A stretch of DNA of 64,000 bases from Paraburkholderia caballeronis (GTDB lineage Bacteria > Pseudomonadota > Gammaproteobacteria > Burkholderiales > Burkholderiaceae). Positions 2,493 through 63,355 of this stretch are shown piece after piece. The stretch lies in NCBI RefSeq assembly GCF_900104845.1, contig NZ_FNSR01000001.1, positions 248,001 to 312,000 on the forward strand, read 5' to 3'. A program made the translations under genes and the position numbers. The notes beneath the pieces were generated by a model. The model made no database searches. It was given only the letters and a program-made list of their open reading frames with translations, and was not told where the DNA came from. Position 1 is the stretch's first letter; each line of letters begins with the position of its first letter.

Positions 2493-3038
2493 ATGAGTGG
2501 ACGCAGGATCGTCGTGCGCCAGTCGGGCGTGCACGGTAAGGGCGTGTTCGCGGCGGCACCCATCGAGGCCGGCGCACGCCTGATCGAATACAAGGGCGAG
2601 CGGATCTCGTGGAAGGAAGCCTTGCGGCGTCATCCGCACAACCCGGACGAGCCGAATCACACGTTCTATTTCGCGCTCGACAGCGGCAAGGTGATCGACG
2701 GCAAGGTGAACGGCAACAGCGCGCGCTGGATCAACCATTCGTGCGCGCCGAACTGCGAGGCCGAGGAGATCGACGGCCACGTGTACGTGCACGCGCTGCG
2801 CGACATCGCGGAAGGCGAGGAGCTGTTCTACGACTACGGCCTTGTGATCGACGCGAAGCAGACCGCGAAACTGAAGCGCGAATACGAATGCCGGTGCGGC
2901 GCCCGCAAATGCCGCGGCACGATGCTCGCGCCGCCGGAGAAGAAGAAGCCGGGTGCCGCCGCGAAGACGAAAGCGAAGGCCGACGGCAAGAGCAGCAAGA
3001 GCAGCAAGAGCAGCAAGAGCAGCAAGAAGAAAAAATGA
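2493..3038 (+). CDS. Small SET-domain protein (putative protein lysine methyltransferase) with Ser/Lys-repeat tail
   Basis: A 181-residue protein that is nearly all SET domain. HGKGVFA near residue 14, NSARWINHSCAPNC at about 75-88 and EELFYDYG near 109 form the AdoMet-binding pseudoknot. CRCGARKC near 133-140 is a post-SET cysteine cluster that, with the NHSC cysteine, would bind zinc. The core is complete, so activity is plausible. The last 35 residues are disordered, Lys-rich and repeat SSK four times before KKKK, resembling a nucleic-acid-binding or self-modified tail. The start ATG at 2493 follows AAGGA; the open frame extends upstream but looks non-coding. Bacterial SET proteins occur patchily and their targets are mostly unknown. 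A terminator follows directly. Confidence 0.88.
   Translation: MSGRRIVVRQSGVHGKGVFAAAPIEAGARLIEYKGERISWKEALRRHPHNPDEPNHTFYFALDSGKVIDGKVNGNSARWINHSCAPNCEAEEIDGHVYVHALRDIAEGEELFYDYGLVIDAKQTAKLKREYECRCGARKCRGTMLAPPEKKKPGAAAKTKAKADGKSSKSSKSSKSSKKKK
2991..3026 (+). repeat. Four perfect copies of a 9-bp unit (AGCAGCAAG) in the SET gene tail
   Basis: The 9-mer AGCAGCAAG is repeated head to tail four times and encodes the SSK repeats. Because the unit is a multiple of three, copy-number slippage would change tail length without a frameshift. Confidence 0.85.
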
Positions 3039-8820: not shown

Positions 8821-10344
8821 ATGGGCGAGACACATCGGAGCGAAGCGGGCGTTGGCACGCTCACGCATTACATCAACGGCAAGCCGCTCGACGGCACCAG
8901 CGACCGTTACGGCGACGTGTTCAACCCGGCGCTCGGCAGCGTGACCGCGCGCGTGCCGCTCGCGACGGTCGCGGAAGTCGATGCGGCGGTTGCCGCCGCG
9001 AACGCCGCATTTCCCGCGTGGAGCGAGATGGCGCCGCTCAAGCGCGCGCGCATCCTGTTCAAGTTCAAGGACCTGCTCGACCAGCATCACGACGAACTTG
9101 CCGAACTGATCACGCGCGAACACGGCAAGGTGTTCTCCGACGCGAAGGGCGAGGTGATGCGCGGGATCGAGGTGGTCGAGTTCGCGTGCGGGATTCCGAA
9201 CCTGCTGAAGACCGACTTCACCGACCAGATCGGCGGCGGCATCGACAACTGGAACCTGCGGCAGCCGCTCGGCGTCGTCGCGGGCATCACGCCGTTCAAC
9301 TTCCCGATGATGGTGCCGTGCTGGATGTTCCCGGTCGCGCTCGCGTGCGGGAACACGTTCGTGCTGAAGCCGTCGGAGCGCGATCCGTCCGCGTCGCTGC
9401 GGGTCGCGGAACTGCTGAAGGAAGCGGGCCTGCCGGACGGCGTGTTCAACGTCGTGCACGGCGACAAGGTCGCGGTCGATGCGCTGCTCGTGCATCCGGA
9501 CGTGGCGGCGCTGTCGTTCGTCGGCTCGACGCCGATCGCCGAATACATCTACACGGAAGGCACGAAACACGGCAAGCGCGTGCAGGCGCTGGGCGGCGCG
9601 AAGAATCATCTGGTCGTGATGCCGGACGCCGATCTCGACCAGGCGGTCGATGCGCTGATCGGCGCGGCATACGGCTCGGCCGGCGAGCGCTGCATGGCGA
9701 TCTCGGTCGCGGTCGCGGTCGGCCACGTCGCGGACGAACTGATCGAGCGCCTGACGCCGCGCGTGAAGGCGCTGAAGATCGGCAACGGGATGGACGACGA
9801 ATCGGAGATGGGTCCGCTCGTGACGGCCGCGCATCGCGCGAAGGTGACGGGCTACATCGACGCGGGCATCGCGGCGGGTGCGAAGCTGGTCGTCGATGGC
9901 CGCTCGCATCGCGTCGAAGGACACGAGGATGGGTTCTTCATCGGCGGCACGCTGTTCGACGACGTGCAGACCGACATGACGATCTACCGCGAAGAGATTT
10001 TCGGGCCGGTGTTGTGCGTCGTGCGCGTGCCGGACTTCGCGAGCGCGGTCGAACTGATCAACGCGCACGAGTTCGCGAACGGCGTGTCGTGCTTCACGTC
10101 GGACGGCGGCGTCGCGCGCGCGTTCTCGCGGCAGATCAAGGTCGGCATGGTCGGCATCAACGTGCCGATTCCGGTGCCGATGGCGTGGCATTCGTTCGGC
10201 GGCTGGAAGCGGTCGCTGTTCGGCGACCATCATGCTTATGGTGAGGAAGGCGTGCGTTTCTATACGCGCTACAAGAGCATCATGCAGCGCTGGCCGGACA
10301 GCATCGCGAAGGGCGCGGAGTTTACGATGCCGGTGGCGAAGTAG
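8821..10344 (+). CDS. mmsA: CoA-acylating methylmalonate-semialdehyde dehydrogenase
   Basis: A 507-residue aldehyde dehydrogenase of the MmsA/IolA class. It has [14 protein letters not shown] for NAD binding, the catalytic Cys near residue 290 in [16 protein letters not shown], and the class-typical [19 protein letters not shown]. These enzymes convert methylmalonate or malonate semialdehyde to propionyl- or acetyl-CoA in valine, thymine, beta-alanine or inositol breakdown. No other valine genes (mmsB, acyl-CoA dehydrogenases) lie nearby. The neighbours are instead a GMC dehydrogenase and a Liv-type importer, so it may serve another semialdehyde-producing pathway. The start ATG at 8821 gives the MGETHRSE N-terminus. 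Confidence 0.93.
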
Positions 10345-10396: not shown

Positions 10397-10725
10397 TTGC
10401 ATGGGATGGGAGTAAGCGCTGAAGCGACAGTTTTGCATGGGATCAGAGTAAGCGCTGAAGCGCCAACTCTGATCGACAGCTTTGCATGGGGCCGGAGTAA
10501 GTGCTAAAGCACTAACTCCGACCGACAGCTTTGCATGGGATCAGAGTAGGCGCTGAAGCGCTAACTCCGACCGACAGCTTTGCATGGGATCAGAGTAAGC
10601 GCTGAAGCGCCAACTCTGATCGACAGCTTTGCATGGGGCCGGAGTAAGCGCTGAAGCGCTAACTCCGACCGACAGCTTTGCATGGGGTCGGAGTAAGTGC
10701 TGAAGCACTAACTCCGACCGACAGG
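10397..10725 (+). repeat. Tandem array of a 49-bp palindromic unit (one truncated plus six full copies)
   Basis: Six full 49-bp units begin at 10432, 10481, 10530, 10579, 10628 and 10677; a truncated copy lacking its right arm occupies 10397-10430. Each unit has TTTGCATGGG, a 9-base left arm ending AGT, a 4-bp inner stem (GCGC/GCGC or GTGC/GCAC) around TGAA or TAAA, a right arm starting ACT, and CGACAGC. Units 1 and 4 are identical. The arms differ between units but mostly stay complementary (CAGAGT with ACTCTG; CGGAGT with ACTCCG). The last unit ends GACAGG and merges into the ribosome site of the next gene. It fills the 390-base gap between mmsA and the GMC gene. Confidence 0.97.
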
Positions 10726-10734
10726 AGACAAATC

Positions 10735-12462
10735 ATGCCTGCAACGGAACCCCCCGGAGGCCGCGCGTCCGCGCGCCGCGTCGAAGGCGAATTCGATTAC
10801 GTGATCGTCGGCGCAGGCACCGCGGGCTGCGTGCTCGCGGACCGGCTCACCGAAGACCCCGACGTGTCCGTGCTGCTGCTCGAAGCCGGCGGCAAGGACG
10901 ACTACCACTGGATCCACGTACCGGTCGGCTACCTGTACTGCATCGGCAACCCGCGCACCGACTGGCTGTACAAGACCGTCCCCGAGGCCGGGCTGAACGG
11001 CCGCGCGCTCGCCTACCCGCGCGGCCGCGTGCTCGGCGGCTCGTCGTCGATCAACGGAATGATCTATATGCGCGGTCAGCGCGGCGACTACGACGAGTGG
11101 GCGCGCGCGACCGGCGACCCGTCGTGGTCGTGGGACGCCGTGCTGCCAGTATTTCGCCGCAGCGAGGACTATCACGGCGGCGAAAACGAATGGCACGGCG
11201 CGGGCGGCGAATGGCGCGTCGAGAAACAGCGCCTCAAGTGGAAGATCCTCGAAGCGTTTGCCGAGGCCGCGCAGCAGCAGGGCATTCCCGCGACCGACGA
11301 CTTCAATCGCGGCGACAACGGCGGCGTCGGCTACTTCGACGTGAACCAGAAGCGCGGCGTGCGCTGGAACGCGTCGAAGGCATTCCTGCGGCCCGCGATG
11401 AAGCGGCCGAACCTCACGGTCATCACCGGCGCGCACACGCAGCGCGTGATCTTCGAAGGACGCCGCTGCGTCGGCGTCGAATATCGCGGCGACGTCGATT
11501 ACGTCGCGCGCGCACGCTGCGAAGTGATCCTCAGCGCGGGCGCGGTGAATTCGCCGCAACTGCTCGAACTGTCCGGCGTCGGCGACGGCGCGCGGCTCCG
11601 GCCACTCGGCATCGATGTCGTGCACGACCTGCGCGGCGTCGGCGAGAACCTGCAGGACCATCTGCAACTGCGGATGGCTTTCCGCGTGGACGGCGTGCGC
11701 ACGCTGAACACGGCATCCGCGCACTGGTGGGGCAAGCTGATGATCGGCATCGAATACGCGCTGTTCCAGAGCGGGCCGATGTCGATGGCGCCGTCGCAAC
11801 TGGGCGCGTTCGCGAAGTCCGATCCCGACGATCCGGCGCTCACGCGGCCGGACCTCGAATATCACGTGCAGCCGCTGTCGCTCGACCGCTTCGGCGAACC
11901 GCTGCATCGCTTCAATGCGTTCACCGCGTCGGTGTGCAATCTGCGGCCGACGTCGCGCGGCAGCGTGCACGTGGTCTCGGCGGACCCGGCCGCGCCGCCG
12001 TCGATCGCGCCGAACTATCTGTCCACCGACCACGACCGGCGCGTCGCCGCGAACGCACTGCGGCTCACGCGCCGCATCGCCGCGTCCTCGGCGCTCGCGC
12101 GCTACCAGCCGCACGAAATCCTGCCCGGCCTCGCGTTCCAGACCGAGGAGGAATTGCAGGAAGCGGCCGGCGCCGTCGGCACGACGATCTTCCATCCGGT
12201 CGGCACCTGCCGGATGGGCCGCGCGGACGACGACGACGCGGTCGTCGACAGCCGTCTGCGCGTGCGCGGCATCGACGGGCTGCGCGTCGTCGATGCGTCG
12301 GTGATGCCGACCATCACGTCCGGCAACACGAATTCGCCGACGCTGATGATCGCGGAACGCGCCGCGCAGATGCTGCGCGAGGATCGCCGCGCCGGTGCCT
12401 CCGCATCGACGGTGCGCGAGCCCGGCACGACGTCAGCGAACGTGCCGGCGTCCGTGTCCTGA
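10735..12462 (+). CDS. GMC-family FAD-dependent oxidoreductase (choline/alcohol dehydrogenase-like)
   Basis: A 575-residue glucose-methanol-choline oxidoreductase. YVIVGAGTAGCVLADRL (about 22-38) is the FAD Rossmann motif, GGSSSINGMIYMRGQ near 100 is GMC signature 1, and a signature-2-like SAGAVNSPQLLELSG lies near 265. The catalytic His is in HPVGTCRMG near residue 488 and the partner Asn in SGNTNSPTLM. Members oxidise alcohols to aldehydes. Next to the semialdehyde dehydrogenase and an importer, a two-step alcohol oxidation is plausible but the substrate is unknown. The start ATG at 10735 follows GGAG at the end of the last 49-bp unit, so the array forms its leader. Confidence 0.9.
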   Translation: MPATEPPGGRASARRVEGEFDYVIVGAGTAGCVLADRLTEDPDVSVLLLEAGGKDDYHWIHVPVGYLYCIGNPRTDWLYKTVPEAGLNGRALAYPRGRVLGGSSSINGMIYMRGQRGDYDEWARATGDPSWSWDAVLPVFRRSEDYHGGENEWHGAGGEWRVEKQRLKWKILEAFAEAAQQQGIPATDDFNRGDNGGVGYFDVNQKRGVRWNASKAFLRPAMKRPNLTVITGAHTQRVIFEGRRCVGVEYRGDVDYVARARCEVILSAGAVNSPQLLELSGVGDGARLRPLGIDVVHDLRGVGENLQDHLQLRMAFRVDGVRTLNTASAHWWGKLMIGIEYALFQSGPMSMAPSQLGAFAKSDPDDPALTRPDLEYHVQPLSLDRFGEPLHRFNAFTASVCNLRPTSRGSVHVVSADPAAPPSIAPNYLSTDHDRRVAANALRLTRRIAASSALARYQPHEILPGLAFQTEEELQEAAGAVGTTIFHPVGTCRMGRADDDDAVVDSRLRVRGIDGLRVVDASVMPTITSGNTNSPTLMIAERAAQMLREDRRAGASASTVREPGTTSANVPASVS

Positions 12463-17617: not shown

Positions 17618-18253
17618 ACGCTCCGGGCGGAGCGCGTGTCGCGCGTTCCATGGGAGTGCGATGAAAGGGGCTGCCGGCAAGCGCGCGGCTTGCGGTGCGG
17701 CTGTGCGAGAATGGCGCTTCAACCCGCCTCAAGCCGCCCCAATTCAGTGCCGCACTGCACCACTAGGGTAAATGCTAGTTGTTGCAACCCGGCCCGATCG
17801 TTAATCTTGCAACAGTTCTGATGCACCCGAATTTGCAGGTGGAGAACGAGGAGACAACGAGGCACAAAGTGCCCGGCCAGAAAGCGCTGTTGGATGGGAA
17901 TCCAACAGCGCTTTTTATTTTTTATTCGACCGATTTTCACGGCGATTATCTTTTCCTTTCGCGGCCGATTATTTTTTCCGCGCCGCGCGCCTTCCTCCTT
18001 TTACGCAAACTGCGGCCCGTTACGCGCGATCCCAATGCCCGCGCGCGTTCCGGCGTTACGCGTCGCGCGCGGCGTCCACGCGCTCCGTTAATTGCTTGCC
18101 GTTGCGCATAACCGTCGCTACACTCGCCTTTCCCCGACCATGCGGTCGGTGTATTGCCCGACGTCAAGTGGACGGCAATTACGCGGATAAAATCGTCGCA
18201 GCCGGACAAACTCCGGCGCAATAAAGAAAGAAGCGATTGAACAAGGAGTGGAG
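17618..18253. other. 636-bp intergenic region with a strong terminator; possible small RNA
   Basis: No protein gene is convincing. The segment 17760-17880 has mixed composition, with GTTGCAAC at 17781-17788 and TTGCAAC at 17807-17813. It leads into the terminator at 17881-17914. The stretch 17915-18000 is unusually AT-rich for this genome. Either the livM-like transcript has a long 3' untranslated region, or a small RNA of about 130-150 bases ends at the terminator. Confidence 0.45.
17881..17922 (+). terminator. Strong intrinsic terminator with 15-bp stem
   Basis: A perfect 15-bp inverted repeat (17881-17895 with 17900-17914) around GGGA is followed by a T-rich run to about 17922. It is the strongest terminator in the left half. 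It ends either the Liv-type operon or a small RNA made from the preceding intergenic DNA. Confidence 0.9.
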
Positions 18254-40662: not shown

Positions 40663-40688
40663 AAAAAAAAGCGGGCCTGGAGCCCGCT
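40663..40688 (-). terminator. Minus-strand intrinsic terminator with no assigned gene
   Basis: A 7-bp stem (40670-40676 with 40682-40688) is followed, on the minus strand, by eight T residues. The nearest minus-strand gene stops more than 500 bases away, so a short unannotated transcript probably ends here. Confidence 0.7.
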
Positions 40689-40907
40689 AAAAACCACACG
40701 CTACGGGGTTAGCGCGAGGAGACCAAAGGAGGAGCCGGGTGTGATGACGTCCACAGCGCCGGTTACGGCTCCAGCAAGGATGCCCCTGCGAAGGGCTTCG
40801 GCATGAAGCCGACCGGCCGGTGTTTAGTGTCCGCTCACACTCGATACCGAACCACATCCGTGTTGAAACCGTTGAACGCATTGTGGGCGAATTGAGATAG
40901 GTGCGCG

Positions 40908-63000: not shown

Positions 63001-63065
63001 AAACAAAAAGGGCCATGCAGGACGCGCCGCAGGCGGGATGCCTGTGGACGCCTCGTGCATGGCCC
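63001..63065 (-). terminator. Riboswitch expression platform: terminator hairpin
   Basis: On the minus strand GGGCCATGCA pairs with TGCATGGCCC over 10 bp (63056-63065 with 63010-63019), with a structured loop between, and five T residues follow. It directly follows aptamer 2 and ends 33 bases before gcvT. Its 5' arm abuts the closing helix of aptamer 2, so glycine binding can plausibly prevent termination. Confidence 0.8.
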
Positions 63066-63355
63066 CTCTGTCCTCGGTACCTGAGAGATTGCGCCGCGGT
63101 TCGCTCGAACCGGACGACGCGCGCCCCTTCGGTGGGCAGCCTGCGTGCCGCGTGGTTCGTTTGGACCGCGCCGGGTACGCTACTGCCGCTCTCCAGAGTG
63201 CGGACCTTCGCGCGTTTCCGTCCGCATCCTGTGGATGCATGGGCAGATCAGCGGTCCGGCGCGCACGGTCCTTTTGCCTGAGAGTTTGTGGGTTGCCCCT
63301 TCGGCGGCGCCGGCGGGATGCGCTGTGCGCATCGGCCGGCGCGCTCTCCCGGCGC
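63064..63355 (-). ncRNA. Tandem glycine riboswitch upstream of gcvT
   Basis: Two aptamers are visible on the minus strand. Aptamer 1 (about 63355-63262) has GGGAGAGC, CCGAAGGGGCAACC and AAACTCTCAGGCAAAAGGACC. Aptamer 2 (about 63202-63064) has CTCTGGAGAGC, CACCGAAGGGGCGC and CAATCTCTCAGGTACCGAGG with ACAGAGG. These CTCTCAGGYA and CCGAAGGGGC motifs are diagnostic of the gcvT RNA class. Glycine binding is expected to turn on the gcvTHP operon through the terminator that follows. Confidence 0.96.

Follow-up and report, generated by a model that had tools for sequence, protein, structure and literature searches.

A dispersed family of 49-nt hairpin units placed before translation starts in Burkholderia in the wide sense

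The tandem array ahead of the GMC gene

The window, by which we mean the whole 64,000-nucleotide stretch of Paraburkholderia caballeronis DNA analysed, carries a tandem array of hairpin units between mmsA and a gene for a GMC oxidoreductase (Table 1). An earlier note had described six full units and one truncated unit with an exact 49-bp period. Indeed, TRF reported a tandem repeat at 10425–10724 (period 49, 6.1 copies, 88% matches, 0% indels), and the motif GCATGGG recurs at 10435, 10484, 10533, 10582, 10631 and 10680, a spacing of exactly 49 bp; a further GCATGGG at 10399 opens the truncated unit, 36 bp before the next. Placed in register, a unit consists of GCATGGG, a 32-nt hairpin and CGACAGCTTT. 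The hairpin is predicted to comprise an outer stem of 8 bp, an A.A mismatch, an inner stem of 5 bp, whose first pair is often open, and a URAA loop, and the linker is predicted to form a short helix at the base in which one A is bulged. When up to three mismatches are allowed, matches to the 17-nt linker number 6 in the window, compared with a mean of 0.16 in shuffled sequence.

Predicted fold energies of the six full units are, in order, −23.4, −22.4, −18.1, −23.4, −23.9 and −25.2 kcal/mol, the weakest belonging to the unit at 10533 with its two A.C mismatches; the truncated unit reaches −6.9 kcal/mol. The arm variants named in the earlier note are all present in the array. An alternative TRF fit (10435–10724, period 147, 2.0 copies, 94%), together with the identical hairpins of units 2 and 5, suggests duplication of a three-unit block. 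The array runs up to the Shine-Dalgarno (SD) sequence of the GMC gene (CGACAGGAGACAAATCATG): the last unit terminates in CGACAG, whose final AG also opens the SD AGGAGA.

Table 1. Coordinates of the array and its neighbouring features in the window
Feature	Position	Strand	Basis
mmsA, methylmalonate-semialdehyde dehydrogenase gene, upstream	8821..10344	+	ORF; annotation of homologues
Unit 1, truncated and decayed	10399..10434	+	sequence and fold
Unit 2, hairpin arms ATCAGAGT / ACTCTGAT	10435..10483	+	fold
Unit 3, arms GCCGGAGT / ACTCCGAC, inner GTGC / GCAC	10484..10532	+	fold
Unit 4, hybrid arms ATCAGAGT / ACTCCGAC, two A.C mismatches	10533..10581	+	fold
Unit 5, hairpin identical to unit 2	10582..10630	+	fold
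Unit 6, arms GCCGGAGT / ACTCCGAC, inner GCGC / GCGC	10631..10679	+	fold
Unit 7, adjoins SD; terminal AG is first AG of SD	10680..10724	+	sequence and fold
Shine-Dalgarno AGGAGA of GMC gene	10723..10728	+	sequence
GMC oxidoreductase gene, downstream (PF00732, PF05199)	10735..12462	+	first 496 codons scanned

No Rfam family matched the array at its curated gathering score, the best sub-threshold match being naRNA4 on the minus strand (32.4 bits, cut-off 59.5); four matches lay elsewhere in the window. Rfam families in the window include a tandem pair of glycine riboswitch aptamers at 63058–63351 (minus strand) and the Burkholderia sRNA families ncS01 and Bp1_781 at 17814–17917 (plus strand) and 40663–40890 (minus strand). 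At 2986–3027 there are 4.7 perfect tandem copies of the 9-bp GCAAGAGCA. By eye, many units read AUG GGN YCN GAG UAA, resembling a minimal uORF with no SD before it. A plasmid search with the locus returned mmsA or GMC homologues among the matches listed (20 of 206).

A dispersed family at translation starts

With 101 bases of the array as query, Blast returned 57 matches from the genome of origin (7.1 Mb, three contigs). A covariance model built from 17 units found at least 126 unit matches at 44 loci on the three contigs, a lower bound because 150 of 4013 candidates were scored; one of the 126 counts a hairpin again from the opposite strand. A fuzzy count over 43 arrays gave 15 with a single unit, 8 with two, 1 with three, 7 with four, 2 with five, 6 with six and 4 with seven. 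In arrays with three or more units, decay is greatest in the 5'-most one, which keeps 10.25 of 13 pairs, compared with 12.14 in middle units and 11.85 in SD-adjacent ones (p = 7e-5 and 0.001). A second array of about four units lies roughly 2.3 kb before the window start (L043, G000:C1:245473-245670), followed by a gene for a YbdK-family carboxylate-amine ligase.

All 35 same-genus genomes searched, the own genome included, contain units, some by one weak match only, and within the family there were matches in 84 of 200 genomes, in 8 out of 25 genera; genomes from other families gave unit matches in 0 of 24. Paraburkholderia, Burkholderia, Caballeronia and Trinickia are the genera among the 80 named matches listed. 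One genome (G128) has an array of at least 11 units ahead of a start codon. The array before the GMC gene is one locus of a 49-nt palindromic unit family common to Burkholderia in the wide sense. The earlier note would have taken many dispersed, covarying copies as support, and a single local slippage event in one strain as refutation; the units are dispersed over 44 loci and occur in 35 of 35 genomes, with covariation described below, and the 44 loci in the own genome rule out one local slippage event. A literature search, with subscription journals mostly outside its coverage, found no description of this hairpin family.

Of the 44 own arrays, 39 are followed in the sense direction, within 70 nt, by an SD, a start codon and an ORF of 80 or more codons; for 34 of these 39 the distance is 12–21 nt. 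Leaving the array on its other side gave 2/44, and random positions gave 97/1692. Among the five misses, L042, L052 and L072 have both an SD and an ATG but their ORFs are shorter, the SD of L070 is weak, and L063 has none. The earlier suggestion that the array is the leader of the GMC gene accords with this placement, both at the GMC gene itself, where the array ends at the SD, and genome-wide.

Similar results were obtained with a foreign set of at least 120 stretches from named genomes, found with a search pattern in which part of the arms is fixed and no SD appears. After 9 of 131 arrays too near a stretch end were left out, 96 of the remaining 122 passed the position test, and the two controls gave 10/122 and 211/2429. 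The 26 misses include 12 that end in a composite junction with another repeat (type CGACAGCGAACG), 4 that resemble nested remnants and at least 2 (L142, L191) that by eye are not units. By a rough estimate, with a distance criterion different from that behind 39/44, 103 of 199 array-less intergenic GGAGA sites are ribosome-binding sites; a preference for GGAGA alone is therefore insufficient, as this share is too low to give 39/44 (p = 2e-7).

Forty downstream proteins were scanned, and 34 gave a family match; at the thresholds used, none was obtained for those of L042, L047, L061, L062, L066 and L071. Most matches are metabolic enzymes, transporters and electron carriers, counted without a genome background, so that enrichment is not implied. 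The families include xylose isomerase, altronate/galactarate dehydratase, CoA-transferase, two enoyl-CoA hydratases, E1 dehydrogenase, LigB dioxygenase, GMC oxidoreductase, aldo/keto reductase, two solute-binding proteins, CydX and cytochrome c. A single hairpin family with a preferred orientation is tied to the translation starts of tens of genes in this genome, and it recurs in many species.

Covariation of the arms and tests for a sense-RNA signal

For the analysis of covariation, 149 own units were found, of which 145 are ungapped and 136 have at least 8 of 13 pairs, and a second filter left 127; foreign units were required to have at least 9 of 13 pairs, and the second filter left 244 of 250. 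These gave 87 distinct hairpins, five of which were judged by eye to be false hits and removed. In the resulting 82, taken one per array from own and foreign sets, 94.6% of cells pair, a share raised by the pairing filters, and 11 of 13 pairs have changed on both sides. The double-change cells, which include any effects of shared descent and of exchange between units here and in the counts that follow, number 114, compared with 31.4 (sd 4.6) after shuffling and 6–16 in slid structures. The count was repeated on units selected by linker only, with no pairing demand. In the own genome, 81 distinct hairpins are 93.0% paired versus 83.7% when shuffled, with 109 double-change cells versus 36.5 (sd 4.4) and again 11 of 13 pairs changed on both sides. 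The foreign set, with chance linker matches kept, is 80.4% paired and has 222 double-change cells versus 76.3. Additionally, in the GMC leaders of two sister genomes (95% identical in coding sequence), two fully compensated pairs distinguish the hairpins nearest the SD, whose flanks are well conserved, and one of the two arrays has an extra unit; replacement by another unit could also have caused this difference.

If the sense RNA mattered, G.U pairs should be tolerated more than A.C. With the pairing filter on and pair 10/23 left out, G.U exceeded A.C (134 vs 102, p = 0.043). Under linker-only selection, again leaving out pair 10/23, there was no excess (130 vs 130; own genome 38 vs 45), and over all pairs the counts were 84 vs 88 for own units and 81 vs 95 for distinct foreign ones. 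The antisense hairpin was predicted to be slightly more stable than the sense one (−17.9 vs −17.6, p = 0.006). Predicted SD accessibility was unaffected by the array (0.490, compared with 0.465 for shuffled arrays, p = 0.35, and 0.560 with the array removed), and the array was accordingly rejected as an insulator keeping the SD open. Sequestration of the SD by the last 3' arm was likewise set aside on inspection by eye; the arms vary. With the tests for a sense-RNA signal weak or negative, the case for RNA is that from position and orientation. Of the earlier proposal that selection acts on the folded form, the constraint on the fold holds up, with covariation above shuffles; action as RNA draws no clear support from the comparison of G.U with A.C.

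Mobility, related repeats and interpretation

Orthologous loci show the arrays to be patchy. Among 30 GMC loci, units precede the gene in 4 (the own locus, L261, L263 and L268) and 26 sites are empty; by visual count, GGAGAC precedes the start at 23 of these 26, and five of the 26 have weak hairpin hits at least 428 nt upstream. Among 30 xylA loci, the own genome has an array, L301 a single diverged hairpin and L314 a nested hairpin; the other 27 have no unit directly before the gene, 25 of them carrying GGAGAC, and weak distant hairpin hits were seen at L305 and L307.

Units are also nested in one another. When 7 or more of the 8 outer pairs were required, we found 23 distinct cases of a complete unit within the loop of another hairpin, with the same junction in 22, GCT/TTGCATGGG...CGACAGCT/AAAGC or close variants. 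With the right-hand junction alone demanded, there were 25 nested structures in 262 loci, 22 of them with 7–8 of 8 outer pairs and none among the 44 own loci; by eye, own locus L069 has a nest with a different junction. Eight nested units were each predicted to fold into a single long hairpin (−47.8 to −60.0 kcal/mol); of these eight, six run straight into an SD. The shared GCT is compatible with site-specific insertion as well as with a double template switch. In a Trinickia genome (G092), all 14 of the 14 loci read have an identical unit embedded in a larger repeat; this repeat is also present in 37 copies that lack the unit. This larger repeat, which we take to be BRE-like, is dispersed and often lies near gene starts on the other strand (L234–L247, L317–L322); having acquired a single 49-nt unit, it spread together with that unit. 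The composite junction of this type was also found elsewhere, for example in Burkholderia catarinensis (L189).

The own genome has no RAYT with flanking units. It has a single, weak Y1_Tnp locus (24 bits), with no unit within the surrounding 3.3 kb either on the scanned strand or in the sequence read. The RAYT-like gene there (L009:1459-2262, around G000:C1:642409-642699) lies upstream of an apparent gltB; its protein had no Pfam match at 1e-4, and its HUH motif has presumably been lost. Each of the 35 same-genus genomes has at least one weak Y1 transposase match, whatever its number of units. Mobilisation by a RAYT is not supported, given the single weak match, the lack of an adjoining unit and a presence independent of unit number. 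Mobility of the 49-nt hairpin family is nevertheless well supported, its mobilising enzyme being hypothetical.

We read the family as a small mobile palindromic repeat of the BOX, REP and BRE kind, forming structured 5' leaders. Like BOX or BRE it is modular and variable, and it shows neither the REP tag, a RAYT, the BRE size nor CRISPR spacers. According to the part of PMC3049150 available, BOX elements of Streptococcus pneumoniae are dispersed and modular, vary in how many stem-loop modules they carry in tandem, can influence genes downstream and, as here, are inserted into one another; unlike the present units, they have no fixed orientation or SD end reported in that part, and 16 of 86 lie between convergent genes. 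In BOX, boxA and boxC ends enclose the boxB modules; by eye, a left end, GCAACCATC, recurs among the own arrays, and it could be set beside the BOX ends by description only. BRE, also compared by description, are tandem, dispersed, variable in copy number, present in Burkholderiales relatives and endowed with mobile features; however, they measure about 90 bp (75–91 bp at full length) versus 49 bp here, and the portion of PMC3110155 consulted has no Burkholderia in its table and reports no start-codon rule. The REP superfamilies GTAG and CGTC share short dispersed palindromes, high copy number and variable stems, whereas the present family forms head-to-tail 49-bp arrays (PMC3733652, in part). 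Neither tag occurs at the palindrome ends at the 44 own loci, where the flanks are GCATGGG and CGACA-type (CGACAG). The TAACTGA repeats of Beggiatoaceae are likewise tandem just upstream of start codons, with a post-transcriptional role proposed, but they are heptamers without a hairpin unit, in genomes where canonical ribosome-binding sites are rare (PMC4679880, in the part available).

Small mobile palindromes usually lie scattered between genes. What sets this family apart is a preferred orientation with its end at the SD, plus self-nesting. The explanation that we favour, with confidence slightly better than even, is a mobile hairpin family forming 5' leaders whose regulatory role is inferred. 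The family would move or have moved and multiply in place; units would arrive at or near ribosome-binding sites, and arrays would grow by slippage or by exchange between units. Transcribed as a 5' leader, the string of hairpins would affect the stability or translation of the downstream mRNA, and the family may in this way tune many metabolic genes. If functional, it would be a shared leader spread by mobility, offering a testable route to a post-transcriptional regulon. A bolder form, which we hold only tentatively and think doubtful, is a post-transcriptional module that wanders across Burkholderia in the wide sense, lands in sense before SDs and is read by a factor, hairpin number and nesting setting the expression of dozens of metabolic genes; expression would then evolve by gain, loss and nesting of units.

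Patchiness at orthologous GMC and xylA genes counts against the leader reading, and its nearest competitor is a purely selfish palindrome of the REP/MITE kind, moving as a DNA hairpin and preferring SD-like neighbourhoods, so that fold and position reflect mobility and not benefit to the gene. We regard this as a serious possibility, less likely than not but only a little behind the leader reading. It is consistent with the symmetry of G.U and A.C, the patchy presence, and insertion into the units' own loops and into a second dispersed repeat. However, the position exceeds a simple GGAGA preference, by the rough estimate and differing distance criterion given above, and no enzyme was found, the weak Y1 matches being independent of unit number and the own one having no unit beside it. 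Even if selfish, an element that settles beside ribosome-binding sites and in its own loops would be unusual.

Docking of double-hairpin anti-ribosome-binding-site sRNAs (RF02278, ncS27 type), for which such targets are predicted in the available part of PMC5688073, would give the leader another role. Three such sRNAs over the cut-off and one weak one occur in the genome, and they begin UGUCUCC or CGUCUCC, complementary to GGAGACA at 15 of 42 array starts. We consider this very improbable: pairing requires the SD and not the hairpins, and, among starts with GGAGA, those at arrays do not clearly have the ACA-type site more often (15/35) than the others do (15/48), an enrichment too weak to retain, with 175 background starts only. 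No more credence can be given to an arrayed operator for a dimeric DNA-binding protein than to such docking; imperfect dyads at constant spacing would suit it, but the outer arms vary freely while remaining complementary (GC, AU, CG and UA at pair 4/29), which is not expected of an operator read by sequence. Orphan CRISPR arrays can practically be discounted. A string search of the literature with core sequences matched one bacterial paper among those listed, PMC5968390, whose Table 4, in the part available, gives the closely similar hairpins GCGTAAGCGCTAAAGCGCTAACGCC (P. terrae) and GTCGACCAGAGTTAGCGCTTCAGC as CRISPR repeats lacking cas genes. Here, however, the intervals are a constant linker and not unique spacers, the arms vary, and at 15 of 43 loci there is one unit only. 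Some published orphan CRISPR repeats in Paraburkholderia are instead suggested to be members of this hairpin family.
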